Assembly (NCBI GenBank): GCA_026693085.1
Contig: JAPLNB010000380.1
Location: forward strand, 1 to 64,000
Length of the DNA: 64,000 nucleotides
Source: Planctomycetota bacterium
Lineage (GTDB): Bacteria > Planctomycetota > Phycisphaerae > Tepidisphaerales > Tepidisphaeraceae
Direction of reading: 5' to 3'
A program made the translations under genes and the position numbers. This document shows positions 5,059-29,028 of this stretch, one piece after another (position 1 is the stretch's first letter; each line of letters begins with the position of its first letter). Below the pieces are notes generated by a model. That model did no database searches and was not told the origin of the DNA. It saw nothing but the letters and a program-made list of their open reading frames with translations.

Positions 5059-5862
5059 TCATATGTAGTCTCCGAGAAGATCGGACTCGTAGGTGCCGGA
5101 GCGGCGGCGATCGGTGAGGGGGCCTTCGGTGAGGCCATAGACGAACTGTCGGACGAGGGGGTCGGTGGAGTCTTTCAATTGCTGGGGTGTACCGGAGATG
5201 ATGAATTTTCCGCGGTCGAGGAGGACCATGCGGTCGGCGATGCGGAAGGCGGAGTCCATTTCGTGGGTGACGACGACGCTGGTCACGCCGAGCTTGTGGT
5301 TGAGGTCGATGATGAGCTGGTCGATTTCGGCGCTGGTGACGGGGTCGAGTCCTGCGGAGGGTTCGTCGTAGAAGAGGATTTTGGGGTCGAGGGCGATGGC
5401 GCGGGCGAGGCCGGCGCGTTTTTTCATGCCGCCGGAGAGTTGAGCGGGCATCTTGTCGGCATGCTCGCGGAGGCCGACCAGCTCGAGCTTGATCTTGACC
5501 ATGATGTCGATGGTTTCTTCGGGCAGATCGGTGTGTTCGCGGAGGGGGAGGGCGACGTTGTCGGCGACGGTCATGGAGTTGAACAGCGCGCCGCTTTGAA
5601 AGAGGACGCCGATCGATCGGCGGTAGTCAGCCAGTTCCGATTCGGTCATGCTCGCGAGGCTTCGTCCGAGGCCGACGATGTCGCCGCCGTCGTAGGGGAT
5701 GTTCCCGATCATCAGGCGGAGCATGGTGGACTTGCCAGAGCCGGAGCCGCCGAGAATGGCGAGCGTTTCGCCCTGCAGGACGTCCAGGCAGATTCTGTCC
5801 AGGACGGCCCGGCCGTCGTAGAGCTTCGTGACATCAATAACTCGGATGGCGGGATCGGGCAT
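5059..5862 (-). CDS. mlaF: MlaF-type ABC transporter ATP-binding protein
   Basis: ATPase of 267 residues that powers the Mla-type lipid transporter. Walker A is GGSGSGKST, the signature LSGGMKKRAGLARA, Walker B plus the following loop ILFYDEPSAGLD, and the H-loop is TSVVVTHEMDS. The start is the ATG at 5862 (MPDPAIRVIDVTKLY); the frame extends upstream only through repeat DNA. No Shine-Dalgarno site precedes this ATG, because AT-rich heptad repeats fill the leader. The upstream four-helix-bundle gene stops with TGA at 5866-5864, a single base before the mlaF ATG, so translation of mlaF probably relies on termination-reinitiation from the inserted gene. Confidence 0.93.
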   Translation of the reverse strand: MPDPAIRVIDVTKLYDGRAVLDRICLDVLQGETLAILGGSGSGKSTMLRLMIGNIPYDGGDIVGLGRSLASMTESELADYRRSIGVLFQSGALFNSMTVADNVALPLREHTDLPEETIDIMVKIKLELVGLREHADKMPAQLSGGMKKRAGLARAIALDPKILFYDEPSAGLDPVTSAEIDQLIIDLNHKLGVTSVVVTHEMDSAFRIADRMVLLDRGKFIISGTPQQLKDSTDPLVRQFVYGLTEGPLTDRRRSGTYESDLLGDYI

Positions 5863-5863
5863 A

Positions 5864-6250
5864 TCAATTTTCGATTTTCGATTTTCGATTTTCGAATGAC
5901 GCGGAACGGCGAACCGAGCGGCGTGAGGCCACAACGATGGCGACAAGCTGATCGGCTTCATTCAACAGCATTTTGACGCGGTTCTCGGGCATCAGGCCAG
6001 CTTCGATGATCAGTTCCATCCAGTAAGCGCTCTCGTCGGCCTCCTCTTCGACCACCCCCAGCCTGGAAATGAACTCGGCTTTGGAGCGAGCTCGACAAGC
6101 GGAACGGTAGTTGGCGCCGACGGAAGTCCCCGATCGGACGAGCTGGTTGGCAAGCGTACGTCCGGTAATGCTGCGATCGAGCGAAGCCGCCAGTTGCATC
6201 GCACGGAGCGCGAACTGCTTGGTCCGGCGTTTCAGGTCAACTTCCTGCAT
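5864..6250 (-). CDS. Four-helix-bundle protein (23S rRNA intervening-sequence protein family)
   Basis: A protein of 128 residues matching the family often named four helix bundle protein or 23S rRNA IVS protein: the N-terminal DLKRRTKQFALRAMQLAASL helix and the LVRSGTSVGANYRSACRARS segment are characteristic, followed by EADESAYWMELI. Such proteins form pentameric bundles and are related to Avd of diversity-generating retroelements; their cellular role is unclear. The ATG at 6250 is preferred, since GGAG lies 6 nt upstream; an ATG at 6262 is part of the repeat itself. The last nine residues are translated from the heptad array. It interrupts an Mla operon and has no known role in lipid transport. 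Confidence 0.88.
   Translation of the reverse strand: MQEVDLKRRTKQFALRAMQLAASLDRSITGRTLANQLVRSGTSVGANYRSACRARSKAEFISRLGVVEEEADESAYWMELIIEAGLMPENRVKMLLNEADQLVAIVVASRRSVRRSASFENRKSKIEN
5867..5898 (-). repeat. Left heptad array of the cassette
   Basis: On the plus strand four perfect copies of ATTTTCG (5867-5894) are followed by AATG. Read on the minus strand this is CATTCG, three copies of AAAATCG and a diverged AAAATTG. The array encodes the last residues (ENRKSKIEN) and borders the TGA of the four-helix-bundle gene, and it is the whole leader of mlaF. Confidence 0.9.
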
Positions 6251-6259
6251 GTGCTTCTC

Positions 6260-6293
6260 CATTCGAAAATCGCCATTCGAAAATCGAAAATCG
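6260..6293 (+). repeat. Right heptad array of the cassette
   Basis: On the plus strand: CATTCG-AAAATCG (6260-6272), one C, then CATTCG-AAAATCG-AAAATCG (6274-6293). The second block equals the left end in reverse complement over 20 bases. Its inner end supplies, on the minus strand, the GGAG that precedes the start codon of the four-helix-bundle gene. The outer end touches the mlaE stop codon. Confidence 0.9.
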
Positions 6294-7106
6294 CTACAGT
6301 CCCATCAGGAAGAATGCGGCGGTGAAGATCAAGTCTACCGCGATGAGTGCGACGATGGTCAGGACGACGGTGCGCGTGGTGGCGCTGCCTACGCCTTGGG
6401 CGCCGCCGGTGACGTTAAGGCCGAGGTAACAGGCGAGGGAGCTGATCAACATGCCGAAGACGCCGGCTTTGATCAGGCCCGTGTAGAAGTCGTTCAGATC
6501 GAGGATGTCGAAGGTGCGCTTGATGTATTGGAGGTAACTGACGCCGAGAAACGCATGCGACACGACCAAGCCGCCCAGGATTCCCATCAGATCGCCCAGG
6601 ACGGCGATGCAGACCATCATGATGGTCGTCGCCAGGACGCGAGGCACCACGAGAAATCGGATCGGCGAGATGGCGTGAGCTTCCAAAGCTTCGATCTCCT
6701 CCGAGACGACCATGGTGCCGATTTCGGCAGCGATGGATGCGCCGGCGAAGCCCGTGAGCACGATTGCGCTGACCAAAGGCCCGAGTTCGCGGAAGACGGC
6801 GATGGAAATGATGTCTGGAATCGTCACAACCAGGCCGAATTGTCGGAGCGTGGGCGCCATTTGCAGCGCCAGAATCGAACCGATGCAGAAGAGCACCAGG
6901 CTGACGATGGGTATGCTGCGGACGCCAACGCGGTCCATCTGTGCGAAGAAATGGGTCCAGCCGAGCCGGCGGCCGCGTTTGGCAACGAGCGACCGGCGGG
7001 TTGCGAGCAGCGCATCCCATGTCAGGTAGCCCACACCGCCGATGAATTCGAGCACGCTGGCGACAGCGCGAACGGTGGCAGTGAAGGGCAGAATCAGCAG
7101 TCTCAT
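6294..7106 (-). CDS. mlaE: MlaE-type ABC transporter permease
   Basis: Membrane permease of the Mla lipid transporter, about 270 residues. It has the family core: a long amphipathic N-terminus, SLVLFCIGSILALQ, the conserved FRELGPLVSAIVLTGFAGASIAAEIG stretch in the middle (split here as FRELGPL and GRAGAS-like GFAGAS), EIEALEAHAISPIRFLVVPR, and C-terminal helices ending GVGSATTRTVVL. Five or six membrane segments are visible. The ATG at 7106 gives a normal length but has no ribosome binding site; a TTG at 7142 (GGAG 12 nt upstream) is an alternative. The stop is 8 bp after no other gene but directly abuts the inserted cassette, while the STAS gene lies just upstream. Confidence 0.92.
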   Translation of the reverse strand: MRLLILPFTATVRAVASVLEFIGGVGYLTWDALLATRRSLVAKRGRRLGWTHFFAQMDRVGVRSIPIVSLVLFCIGSILALQMAPTLRQFGLVVTIPDIISIAVFRELGPLVSAIVLTGFAGASIAAEIGTMVVSEEIEALEAHAISPIRFLVVPRVLATTIMMVCIAVLGDLMGILGGLVVSHAFLGVSYLQYIKRTFDILDLNDFYTGLIKAGVFGMLISSLACYLGLNVTGGAQGVGSATTRTVVLTIVALIAVDLIFTAAFFLMGL

Positions 7107-7148
7107 GTGCAGATGCAACGATTGGCCCGCAGGCCGGGCCAAGCGAAG

Positions 7149-12943: not shown

Positions 12944-12964
12944 AGAATCTAGAATCTAGAATCT
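12944..12964 (+). repeat. Three perfect AGAATCT heptads forming the purB leader
   Basis: AGAATCT occurs three times in tandem (12944-12950, 12951-12957, 12958-12964), preceded by CAATCGAATCACG, and the purB ATG follows with no gap. The heptad is a variant of the AAAATCG unit at the cassette ends and of the mixed array at 22983. Confidence 0.9.
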
Positions 12965-14395
12965 ATGGACCCCAACACGTACGAATCTCCCCTGGCCACG
13001 CGCAACGCCTCGCCCGAGATGCTCCGCCTCTTCTCCGCCCAGCACAAATTCAGCCTCTGGCGCCGCCTCTGGCTGGAACTGGCCCGCCACGAGCGTGACC
13101 TCGGCGTCACCCGGATCACCCCCGAAGCCCTCACGCAGATGGAAGCCAATCTCAACAACATCGACTTCCCAAAGGCCGCCGACTGGGAAAAGCGCCTCCG
13201 CCACGACGTCATGGCCCACGTCAGAACCTTCGAAGAGGCGGCCCCCGCCGCCAAAGGCATCGTGCACCTCGGCGCCACCTCTCAATATGTAGTAGACAAC
13301 GCCGACCTCATCATCATGCGCGATGGGATGAAGCTGCTCTGTGCTCGCCTGGTCAACGCCATCGATGCCTTGGGTGATTTCGCTCTTAAATGGAAGGATT
13401 TGCCCACGTTAGGCTACACGCACTATCAGCCCGCCCAGCTCACGACCGTGGGCAAACGCGCGACCCTCTGGGCCCAGGACCTGGTCATTGACCTGGAGGA
13501 ACTGGAGCACCGCATTTCCACGCTGAGGTTCCGGGGCGTCAAAGGCACCACCGGCACCCAGGCGTCGTTCCTCTGCCTCTTCGACGGCAACCACGAGAAA
13601 TGCGACGAGCTCGACCGCCGGGTCACCGCGGGCTTCGGCTTCGCCGAGTCCTTCCCCGTCACGGGCCAAACCTACCCGCGGAAGATCGATGGCCAGATTA
13701 TTTGCTCATTGGCAAACATCGCCACCTCTGTTCACAAGTTTTGTAACGACATTCGGTTACTGGCGGGCATGAAACAGATCGAGGAGCCGTTCGAAGCGGA
13801 GCAAGTCGGCTCCAGTGCGATGGCTTACAAGCGTAACCCCATGCGATGCGAGCGTGCGACCGGCTTGGCCCGTTTTGTTATCAGCCTCACCAATTCCGTT
13901 CTGCAAACCGCTGCCGAGCAGTGGTTTGAGCGTACCCTCGACGACTCATCCAATAAGCGGCTGACCATCCCCGAAGCGTTCCTAGCCAGCGACGGCTGCC
14001 TCCAGATCGTTGTCAACGTCGCCCGCGGGCTGGTCGTGTATCCCAAGACCATCGAATCCGCGGTCATGGCCGAACTGCCCTTCATGGCCACCGAGGAAAT
14101 CCTTATGGCCGCCGTGCAGGCGGGGGGCGACCGTCAGGAACTTCACGAAGTCATCCGGCGCCACTCTTTGGCCGCGGCCGAACAGGTCAAACTCCATGGC
14201 CGCCCGAACGATCTCATCGAACGACTCCAGCGCGACAGCAGCTTCAAGGCCCTCGATATTCCCCAGCTTATCAGCCCTTCCCATTTTGTAGGCCGATCTC
14301 CGCAGCAGACGGTGAAGTTTCTTCAAGAGATCGTTGTACCCATCCGCCAGCGATACCAACCGCAACTCGGCCAGCGTGTCGAGCTTAACGTATAA
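12965..14395 (+). CDS. purB: Adenylosuccinate lyase
   Basis: 476-residue fumarase/aspartase-superfamily enzyme of purine synthesis (SAICAR to AICAR, adenylosuccinate to AMP). The superfamily signature is SSAMAYKRNPMRCERATGLA, with the catalytic Ser in the mobile loop; HLGATSQYVVDN carries one catalytic region and GYTHYQPAQ another. Length and the EEDL-like C-terminal helices fit the eukaryote-like PurB subgroup. The ATG directly follows the third AGAATCT heptad, so there is no Shine-Dalgarno site; initiation must be leaderless or SD-independent. A near-consensus promoter begins 7 bp after the stop. Confidence 0.96.
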   Translation: MDPNTYESPLATRNASPEMLRLFSAQHKFSLWRRLWLELARHERDLGVTRITPEALTQMEANLNNIDFPKAADWEKRLRHDVMAHVRTFEEAAPAAKGIVHLGATSQYVVDNADLIIMRDGMKLLCARLVNAIDALGDFALKWKDLPTLGYTHYQPAQLTTVGKRATLWAQDLVIDLEELEHRISTLRFRGVKGTTGTQASFLCLFDGNHEKCDELDRRVTAGFGFAESFPVTGQTYPRKIDGQIICSLANIATSVHKFCNDIRLLAGMKQIEEPFEAEQVGSSAMAYKRNPMRCERATGLARFVISLTNSVLQTAAEQWFERTLDDSSNKRLTIPEAFLASDGCLQIVVNVARGLVVYPKTIESAVMAELPFMATEEILMAAVQAGGDRQELHEVIRRHSLAAAEQVKLHGRPNDLIERLQRDSSFKALDIPQLISPSHFVGRSPQQTVKFLQEIVVPIRQRYQPQLGQRVELNV

Positions 14396-22982: not shown

Positions 22983-23017
22983 CATTCGAGAATCTAAAAT
23001 CGAAAATCGAGAATCCT
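22983..23017 (+). repeat. Solo CATTCG-heptad array
   Basis: CATTCG followed by AGAATCT, AAAATCG, AAAATCG and AGAATCC in perfect seven-base phase. It fills the gap between the convergent dCMP deaminase and ABC-F genes and overlaps the ABC-F stop codon. It combines the heptad types of the four-helix-bundle cassette and of the purB leader. Confidence 0.9.
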
Positions 23018-28462: not shown

Positions 28463-29014
28463 TCAGCGCCGCCTTCGCAACACCACCATCGCCACCACCA
28501 ACGCGATCGGAAACACCAGCCCCCTTAGATACGAGAAGTACGCTTGAATTCGGTAGATGCTCCCCAATGACCCCACACCGATGAACCGATAAGTCGCGAT
28601 CCGCGCCACAAAAGCCGCCGCCATTACCACCACGATCAAAGCGCAGATCAGCACCGCCGACAACGCCGCCGGCCGATCCGGGCTCAAGAGCGCCGGCCCC
28701 CGTGCCGGGTTCGACGCGTAAAACAACAGCCCCACCAGCAGAAGCACAAACACCGTCAACCCCACGCCTGCGCCGAGCAACGCCTCCAACTCCGACGCGA
28801 TCGACAGCCAGCTCACGACCACCACCGCCACCGACTCCGCCAGCATCGTGCACGCCGACACCAGACTCAAGATCAGCATCCCCCCGAGCAGCCACCTCAC
28901 CCGACCCGCCCGCGTCTCCAACTCCCCCTCCCGCCCATATTCCATCACCGGCAGCGGCACCGCCTCTTGCTCAATCATCGTCCCACGACCTTCGCGTGAT
29001 TCATCGTTCATCAT
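28463..29014 (-). CDS. Hypothetical membrane protein
   Basis: 183 residues, about four hydrophobic helices (WLLGGMLILSLVSACTMLA, VAVVVVSWLSIA, LTVFVLLLVGLLFYA, AVLICALIVVVMAAAFVARIA) and a polybasic end (VVLRRRR). No family recognised. The first ATG at 29014 lies directly after the thioesterase TGA inside a heptad array that also supplies GAGGG, 4 nt from the first and 7 nt from the second ATG, so it is coupled to the thioesterase gene. Confidence 0.65.
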   Translation of the reverse strand: MMNDESREGRGTMIEQEAVPLPVMEYGREGELETRAGRVRWLLGGMLILSLVSACTMLAESVAVVVVSWLSIASELEALLGAGVGLTVFVLLLVGLLFYASNPARGPALLSPDRPAALSAVLICALIVVVMAAAFVARIATYRFIGVGSLGSIYRIQAYFSYLRGLVFPIALVVAMVVLRRRR

Positions 29015-29028
29015 TCATCCCTCATCAT
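29001..29028 (-). repeat. ATGATGA-type heptad array at a gene junction
   Basis: Minus strand: ATGATGA, GGGATGA, ATGATGA, ACGATGA, four units in phase. It contains the end of the thioesterase gene (TGA 29017-29015), the ribosome binding site and the start codons of the membrane-protein gene. Confidence 0.8.

Follow-up and report, generated by a model that had tools for sequence, protein, structure and literature searches.

In the 64,000-nt stretch of DNA analyzed here (the window), mlaE is separated from mlaF by a short block with a gene of its own, raising the question of what this block is and how it came to lie within an operon. The gene order on the minus strand is a STAS gene, mlaE, a gene for an S23/four-helix-bundle (4HB) protein, mlaF and an mlaD-like gene, with mlaE ending at 6294 and the ATG of mlaF at 5862. 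The features of the region are as follows:

5059..5862, minus strand: mlaF-like ABC ATPase, beginning one base past the 4HB stop
5863..6293, minus strand: whole insert from the mlaE stop to the mlaF start (431 nt), absent from the orthologous junctions of relatives
5864..5898, minus strand: downstream arm (relative to the gene), a (CGAAAAT)n array with CATTCG first, read as the protein tail FENRKSKIEN
5864..6262, minus strand: S23/4HB gene (132 aa), above the cut-offs of PF05635 and TIGR02436
6260..6293, minus strand: upstream arm CGATTTTCGATTTTCGAATGGCGATTTTCGAATG, an inverted copy of the downstream arm
6294..7142, minus strand: mlaE permease, its stop TAG directly adjoining the upstream arm

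Both arms are built from the word GATTTTC/GAAAATC. A repeat search delimited them as an inverted pair of 37 nt (5862–5898 and 6260–6296) that is 86% complementary and separated by 361 nt; their duplex has a computed energy of −43 kcal/mol, and the predicted fold of the insert RNA, in which the terminal stem is formed, is stronger than that of 100 out of 100 shuffled sequences (z −2.85). The 4HB gene is the only one in the block, and its last ten codons fall in the downstream array. A preliminary description of the locus had recognized the block (sized there at 428 bp), its inverted arrays, its single 4HB gene and the protein tail read from the repeat, and these structural points hold. It had also proposed that the repeat supplies the GGAG motif ahead of the gene; the first G does belong to the array end GAATG, but the rest of the motif lies outside the array. 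This GGAG precedes an alternative start, an ATG at 6250, while the open reading frame listing places the start at 6262, an ATG inside the array end. Classified by repeat period, the window contains four arrays of period 7, three each of periods 12 and 14 (the latter a harmonic of 7) and none of periods 4–6, 8–11, 13 or 15. Period-7 arrays without an inverted partner lie at 12944–12965 (AGAATCT), 22991–23015 (AAAATCG, the same word as in the insert) and 29000–29026 (TTCATCR).

The encoded protein is a member of the S23 (23S_rRNA_IVP) family, scoring above the curated cut-offs of both PF05635 (56 bits; cut-off 33.8) and TIGR02436 (82 bits; cut-off 24). Its AlphaFold model consists of four helices (mean pLDDT 90), and the nearest solved structures found by Foldseek are those of the S23 family, 2rld (TM 0.9) and 2gsc, followed by Avd (4dwl). 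The relationship to Avd of diversity-generating retroelements suggested in the preliminary description is confirmed at the level of the fold (TM about 0.82), with a sequence identity of about 12%. Unlike these retroelements, the mla block contains no reverse transcriptase; it comprises one gene, and the scanned neighbors are mla genes. Considered as a defense or phage protein, the 4HB protein returned no match to PADLOC or PHROGs.

The position of the insert bears on the translation of mlaF, which was earlier thought to have lost its ribosome-binding site. This is not borne out by the empty junctions of relatives, which also lack an mlaF ribosome-binding site and look coupled to mlaE (TGATG, TGACCCATG), so the insert removed none. 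The 4HB stop TGA is followed by a single T and then by the mlaF ATG; since the 4HB frame crosses the downstream array and ends a single base short of mlaF, translational coupling can probably pass through the insert. The element may be tolerated between mlaE and mlaF because ribosomes arriving from mlaE would still reach mlaF via the 4HB frame.

The literal repeat word proved to be a poor guide to related elements. GAAAATCGAAAATCG is found at five sites in the genome of 6.24 Mb and forms an inverted pair only between mlaE and mlaF; the other four sites are unpaired, three of them lying within open reading frames where they are read as ENRKSKI-like inserts. This sequence gave 10 matches in the window's genome and three or fewer in any of 60 relatives. 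The check put forward with the preliminary description, a search for inverted AAAATCG pairs across the genome, therefore returned one pair only, and AAAATCG pairs are neither a mobile signature nor a mobile family in this genome. Had this word been the signature, there would be little to support a mobile cassette. The search finds this copy alone because words vary between copies; in general, the signature is two inverted arrays of a 7- or 8-bp word specific to the copy. Among the GATTTTC/AAAATCG arrays within open reading frames of this genome, those in L002 (1496–1521), L003 (1495–1524) and L005 (1495–1524 and 1854–1880) lie in frames that by eye are helicase-like, DnaE-like and sugar-permease-like, and give in-frame ENRKSKI-type inserts reminiscent of Rickettsia palindromic elements.

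When arrays were sought by self-matching at a lag of 7, with no fixed word, they proved to be concentrated at 4HB genes. At 80 4HB loci from public genomes, a period-7 array was present within 300 bp of the gene in 47 cases, at a density of 1.07 per kb near the gene and 0.14 per kb farther away, and no arrays of periods 5, 10 or 11 were found near the gene. These loci had been retrieved with patterns that included the tail FENRKSKI, which introduces a selection bias, and the tests were therefore repeated on loci chosen by HMM score only. Across 61 related genomes, period-7 arrays lay within 300 bp of the gene at 16 of 30 4HB loci, at one of 30 ParE loci and at none of 30 loci each for GxxExxY genes and Y1 transposases, so that neither of the latter two can be regarded as a carrier of the same heptads. 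The window's genome itself has six 4HB genes, of which five are accompanied by period-7 arrays, with the words GGGTAGT, CAGGGGT, AGGGTTC, ATTGGTT and GATTTTC, and the sixth by an 8-bp word.

The arrays are also paired. Aligning the 250 bp upstream of each gene with the reverse complement of the 250 bp downstream, and accepting Smith–Waterman scores of at least 18, identified inverted arms at 109 of 154 4HB loci from at least a dozen phyla, in genomes that are mostly metagenome-assembled; about 30% of the loci are without clear arms at this threshold. Chance is excluded as an explanation, since flanks paired across different loci give arms in about 1% of cases (1.1%), and none of 30 ParE loci has them. 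The arm period is 7 in 70 elements and 8 in 18, and element length has a median of 477 bp (interquartile range 449–519). A further sample gave arms at 17 of 23 4HB matches (one locus counted twice). Seven 4HB copies on cyanobacterial or Chloroflexota plasmids have word arrays on both sides, four of them scoring at least 18 and the others, with shorter or degenerate arms, 12.5–17; six of the seven lie between two same-strand genes. Neighbors of these plasmid genes include DUF1156 with a Swt1-family (Swt1-HEPN) gene twice and csx2 with cas1 once (L362, L364 and L365), a setting that could lead the 4HB gene and its heptad arms to be taken for part of a defense system. Carriers in culture include Gloeocapsa PCC 7428, Planktothrix agardhii NIES-204 and Dolichospermum CCAP 1403/13F. 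In-frame insertion was rejected as a general rule: read-through in one frame or another was seen in five of 109 elements, compared with five of 327 cases with foreign flanks.

These data define a class in which a single S23/4HB gene is enclosed by tandem arrays of a 7-bp (sometimes 8-bp) word in inverted orientation. The block between mlaE and mlaF is probably one copy of this widespread class of small selfish elements, which measure about 0.45–0.52 kb. The open-access literature yielded no paper tying 4HB or GxxExxY genes to heptad arrays, and this widespread class of probable small mobile elements is apparently undescribed. GxxExxY genes (L157–L186) have inverted arms in 26 of 29 cases, with other words of 8 to about 12 bp, including CACAGAGG, CACGAAG and CACAGATGAA; with arms of their own words, they form a parallel cassette class.

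Orthologous sites without the element are readily found. A 4HB gene is absent from the mlaE–mlaF junction in all 27 related genomes in which this junction is readable. Within the same family, 21 junctions are readable including that of the window, nine of which are short (−1 to 56 nt) and twelve of which hold an insert: the 4HB element of the window, GxxExxY genes in inverted arms (L019, L020 and L034; two congeneric), GTAG-type REP doublets (L022 and L025), small inverted repeat pairs (L024, L026, L027, L029 and L032) and an unpaired array (L031). The congeneric L023 and L024 differ in that the former has nothing and the latter a 117-nt hairpin at this position. Because the words of the inserts differ, most must be independent, making the junction a hot spot, and the presence of REP doublets means that repeat elements of at least three kinds end up there. 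A second site is provided by G037, in which a complete 4HB element lies inside dnaE (L141, about 1396–1915); the dnaE of its congener G028 (L308) is without the element and has flanks 87–88% identical to those of G037, the closest site comparison being one between species. The dnaE frame of G037 remains open through the whole element, with the 4HB gene read in another frame. The insertion and cassette character ascribed to the mla block in the preliminary description is supported by the empty junctions of relatives, together with recurrence across many phyla, and we infer from this that the element is mobile.

The word is inherited with the protein. The more similar two 4HB proteins are, the smaller is the distance between their words (Mantel r = −0.435, p = 0.0002; 62 loci), also in the HMM-chosen subset (r −0.386, p = 0.0002; 31 loci), and words keep their orientation with respect to the gene. 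Within an element, the arms differ on average at 0.95 of 7 positions, compared with 1.5–1.9 of 7 for the same arm in elements whose proteins are >70% identical. The two ends thus keep pace with each other as the word drifts, and this requires some copying or regeneration of the ends.

The same words also occur away from 4HB genes. In the complete genome G012, 400 kb sampled at even spacing contain 13 arrays of period 7 along with several small pairs in inverted orientation, and the word GTAGGCA is common to the 4HB element of this genome (L146) and its hairpins. GTAGGCAGTAGGCAG gave 58 matches in G012, 32 in G025, 28 in G001 and 21 in G009, with at most five in each other genome. Many GTAGGCA sites are hairpins of about 75–145 bp whose middles vary and whose loops end in AGAAG...CTTCT. 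Inspection of the hairpin flanks showed no target-site duplication, the sites compared being strongly diverged; at one hairpin site, matching flanks are 94 nt apart in G012 and 169 nt apart in G025, which has no clear heptad array there. The window's genome has 15 period-7 arrays in 436 kb, and six of 13 solo arrays from this sample, chosen without regard to word, are within one mismatch of a word of the genome's own 4HB genes, compared with 18% for random word sets (p 0.014). Since the other GATTTTC arrays in this genome have no inverted partner, some of them falling within open reading frames, its gene-free population consists of solo arrays and not hairpins.

The closest known counterparts are the intervening sequences (IVS) of 23S rRNA genes. 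The IVS of Coxiella burnetii is 428 nt long, carries an S23 gene and has a 28-bp terminal stem, and is cut out by RNase III (PMC4990558). The mla insert resembles it in size (431 nt), in its single S23-family gene and in its complementary, stem-forming termini (arms of about 35 nt), and IVS share a sporadic distribution with the 4HB elements. However, IVS sit in 23S rRNA helices whereas the elements described here occur in protein-coding operons, as the mla insert does between mlaE and mlaF; a coarse string test of the loci retrieved for their 4HB genes found exact 23S motifs in none of them. The likeness to IVS concerns size, gene and stem; the ends of the present elements are tandem arrays of a copy-specific 7- or 8-bp word. 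By analogy with Coxiella, the terminal stem of the insert transcript could also be cut by RNase III. The authors of PMC4990558 cite an earlier proposal by which IVS are mobile elements with an open reading frame serving mobility.

A possible, though tentative, account is that the S23/Avd-fold protein recognizes its own 7- or 8-bp word and mobilizes both its own element and gene-free hairpins of the same word in trans, regenerating matching end arrays perhaps by reverse transcription or telomere-like slippage; the 23S IVS would then be special cases. On the broader and probable reading that these are small selfish elements, gene and arms would move as a unit. Gene-free arrays would be spread in trans, either by a nuclease, transposase or reverse transcriptase of host or foreign origin acting with the 4HB protein or by such an enzyme on its own, and arrays would grow and shrink through 7-nt slippage. 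The trans-acting recombinase that was earlier deduced from the lack of a transposase inside the block is not supported as stated.

Two further routes of movement can be weighed against this account, each of them unlikely. The 4HB protein may instead be an Avd-like partner of a reverse transcriptase, with an IVS-like RNA being copied and inserted and template slippage in cDNA synthesis yielding the words and keeping the ends identical. The fold match to Avd, the agreement of the two ends while the word drifts between relatives, the strong terminal stem of the element RNA and the residence of known members in an RNA (23S rRNA) are all in keeping with such a route, against which stands the lack of a reverse transcriptase in the element.

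Equally doubtful is that the elements are miniature transposons moved through their hairpins by a Y1 (HuH, RAYT-like) transposase, in the manner of REPINs, with the 4HB gene as a passenger or accessory. REPIN/RAYT is an established trans system (PMC3116915), the genome has eight Y1_Tnp matches, cargo-free hairpin mini-elements are abundant and GTAG-type REP doublets occupy the mlaE–mlaF junction in two relatives (L022 and L025, as above). REP sequences and REPINs share with the present elements a short, dispersed hairpin form, several sequence families per genome and probably movement in trans, as well as a presence at this junction. The Y1 genes here, however, are flanked by GC-rich REP palindromes and never by heptads, and the 4HB arms are tandem 7- or 8-mers without the REP form (GTAG and a short GC-rich palindrome). 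The gene partner of REPINs is Y1, whereas here it is 4HB, the sole gene between the heptad arms of the mla insert.

Quite improbable is local 7-nt slippage, by which arrays would grow beside any small dispensable gene and become inverted by template switching, with no unit moving. As reported in PMC4679880, heptanucleotides are in many prokaryotes the most frequent kind of long repeat, and polymerase slippage is proposed to favor 7 nt; solo arrays are indeed common here, at the 15 per 436 kb given above. Direct heptanucleotide repeats such as the cyanobacterial STRR and the TAACTGA of Beggiatoaceae are likewise dispersed, mostly intergenic 7-bp tandem words specific to a lineage, but they are described without a gene, and open-access papers on them yielded no link to 4HB genes or inverted pairs. 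Against slippage, the arms at 4HB genes are inverted and not direct copies, such arrays are missing from ParE and Y1 genes, which are just as small and sporadic, words track the 4HB protein across phyla, and element-free orthologous sites exist. Growth of arrays could be put down to 7-nt slippage, which would not account for their inverted pairing or for their link with a single gene family. That the 4HB protein serves the mla operon as a working component or regulator is very improbable, for although its gene is on the same strand, within the operon and coupled to mlaF, the related junctions examined have nothing, REP doublets, small hairpins or GxxExxY genes in its place, and other 4HB genes occur at five unrelated loci of the same genome.

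The survey of 4HB loci provides a concrete element definition and a protein family with solved structures, and links both the origin and mobility of 23S IVS and the abundance of bacterial heptanucleotide repeats to one gene family. Co-inheritance of word and protein makes a role of the 4HB protein in moving its own repeats, formerly offered as speculation, testable, with the specific prediction of binding between the protein and its own word. The survey further accounts for a frequent nuisance in annotation, namely protein tails that read as NRKSKIENRKS-like repeats. Among the gene-free relatives, a TGCAAAA-type hairpin is nested in the loop of a GTAGGCA hairpin in G001 (L352, 917–1105), and long unpaired GTAGGCA arrays of 74–96 bp lie beside hairpins in G012 (L337–L339), perhaps as decayed or expanded single ends.
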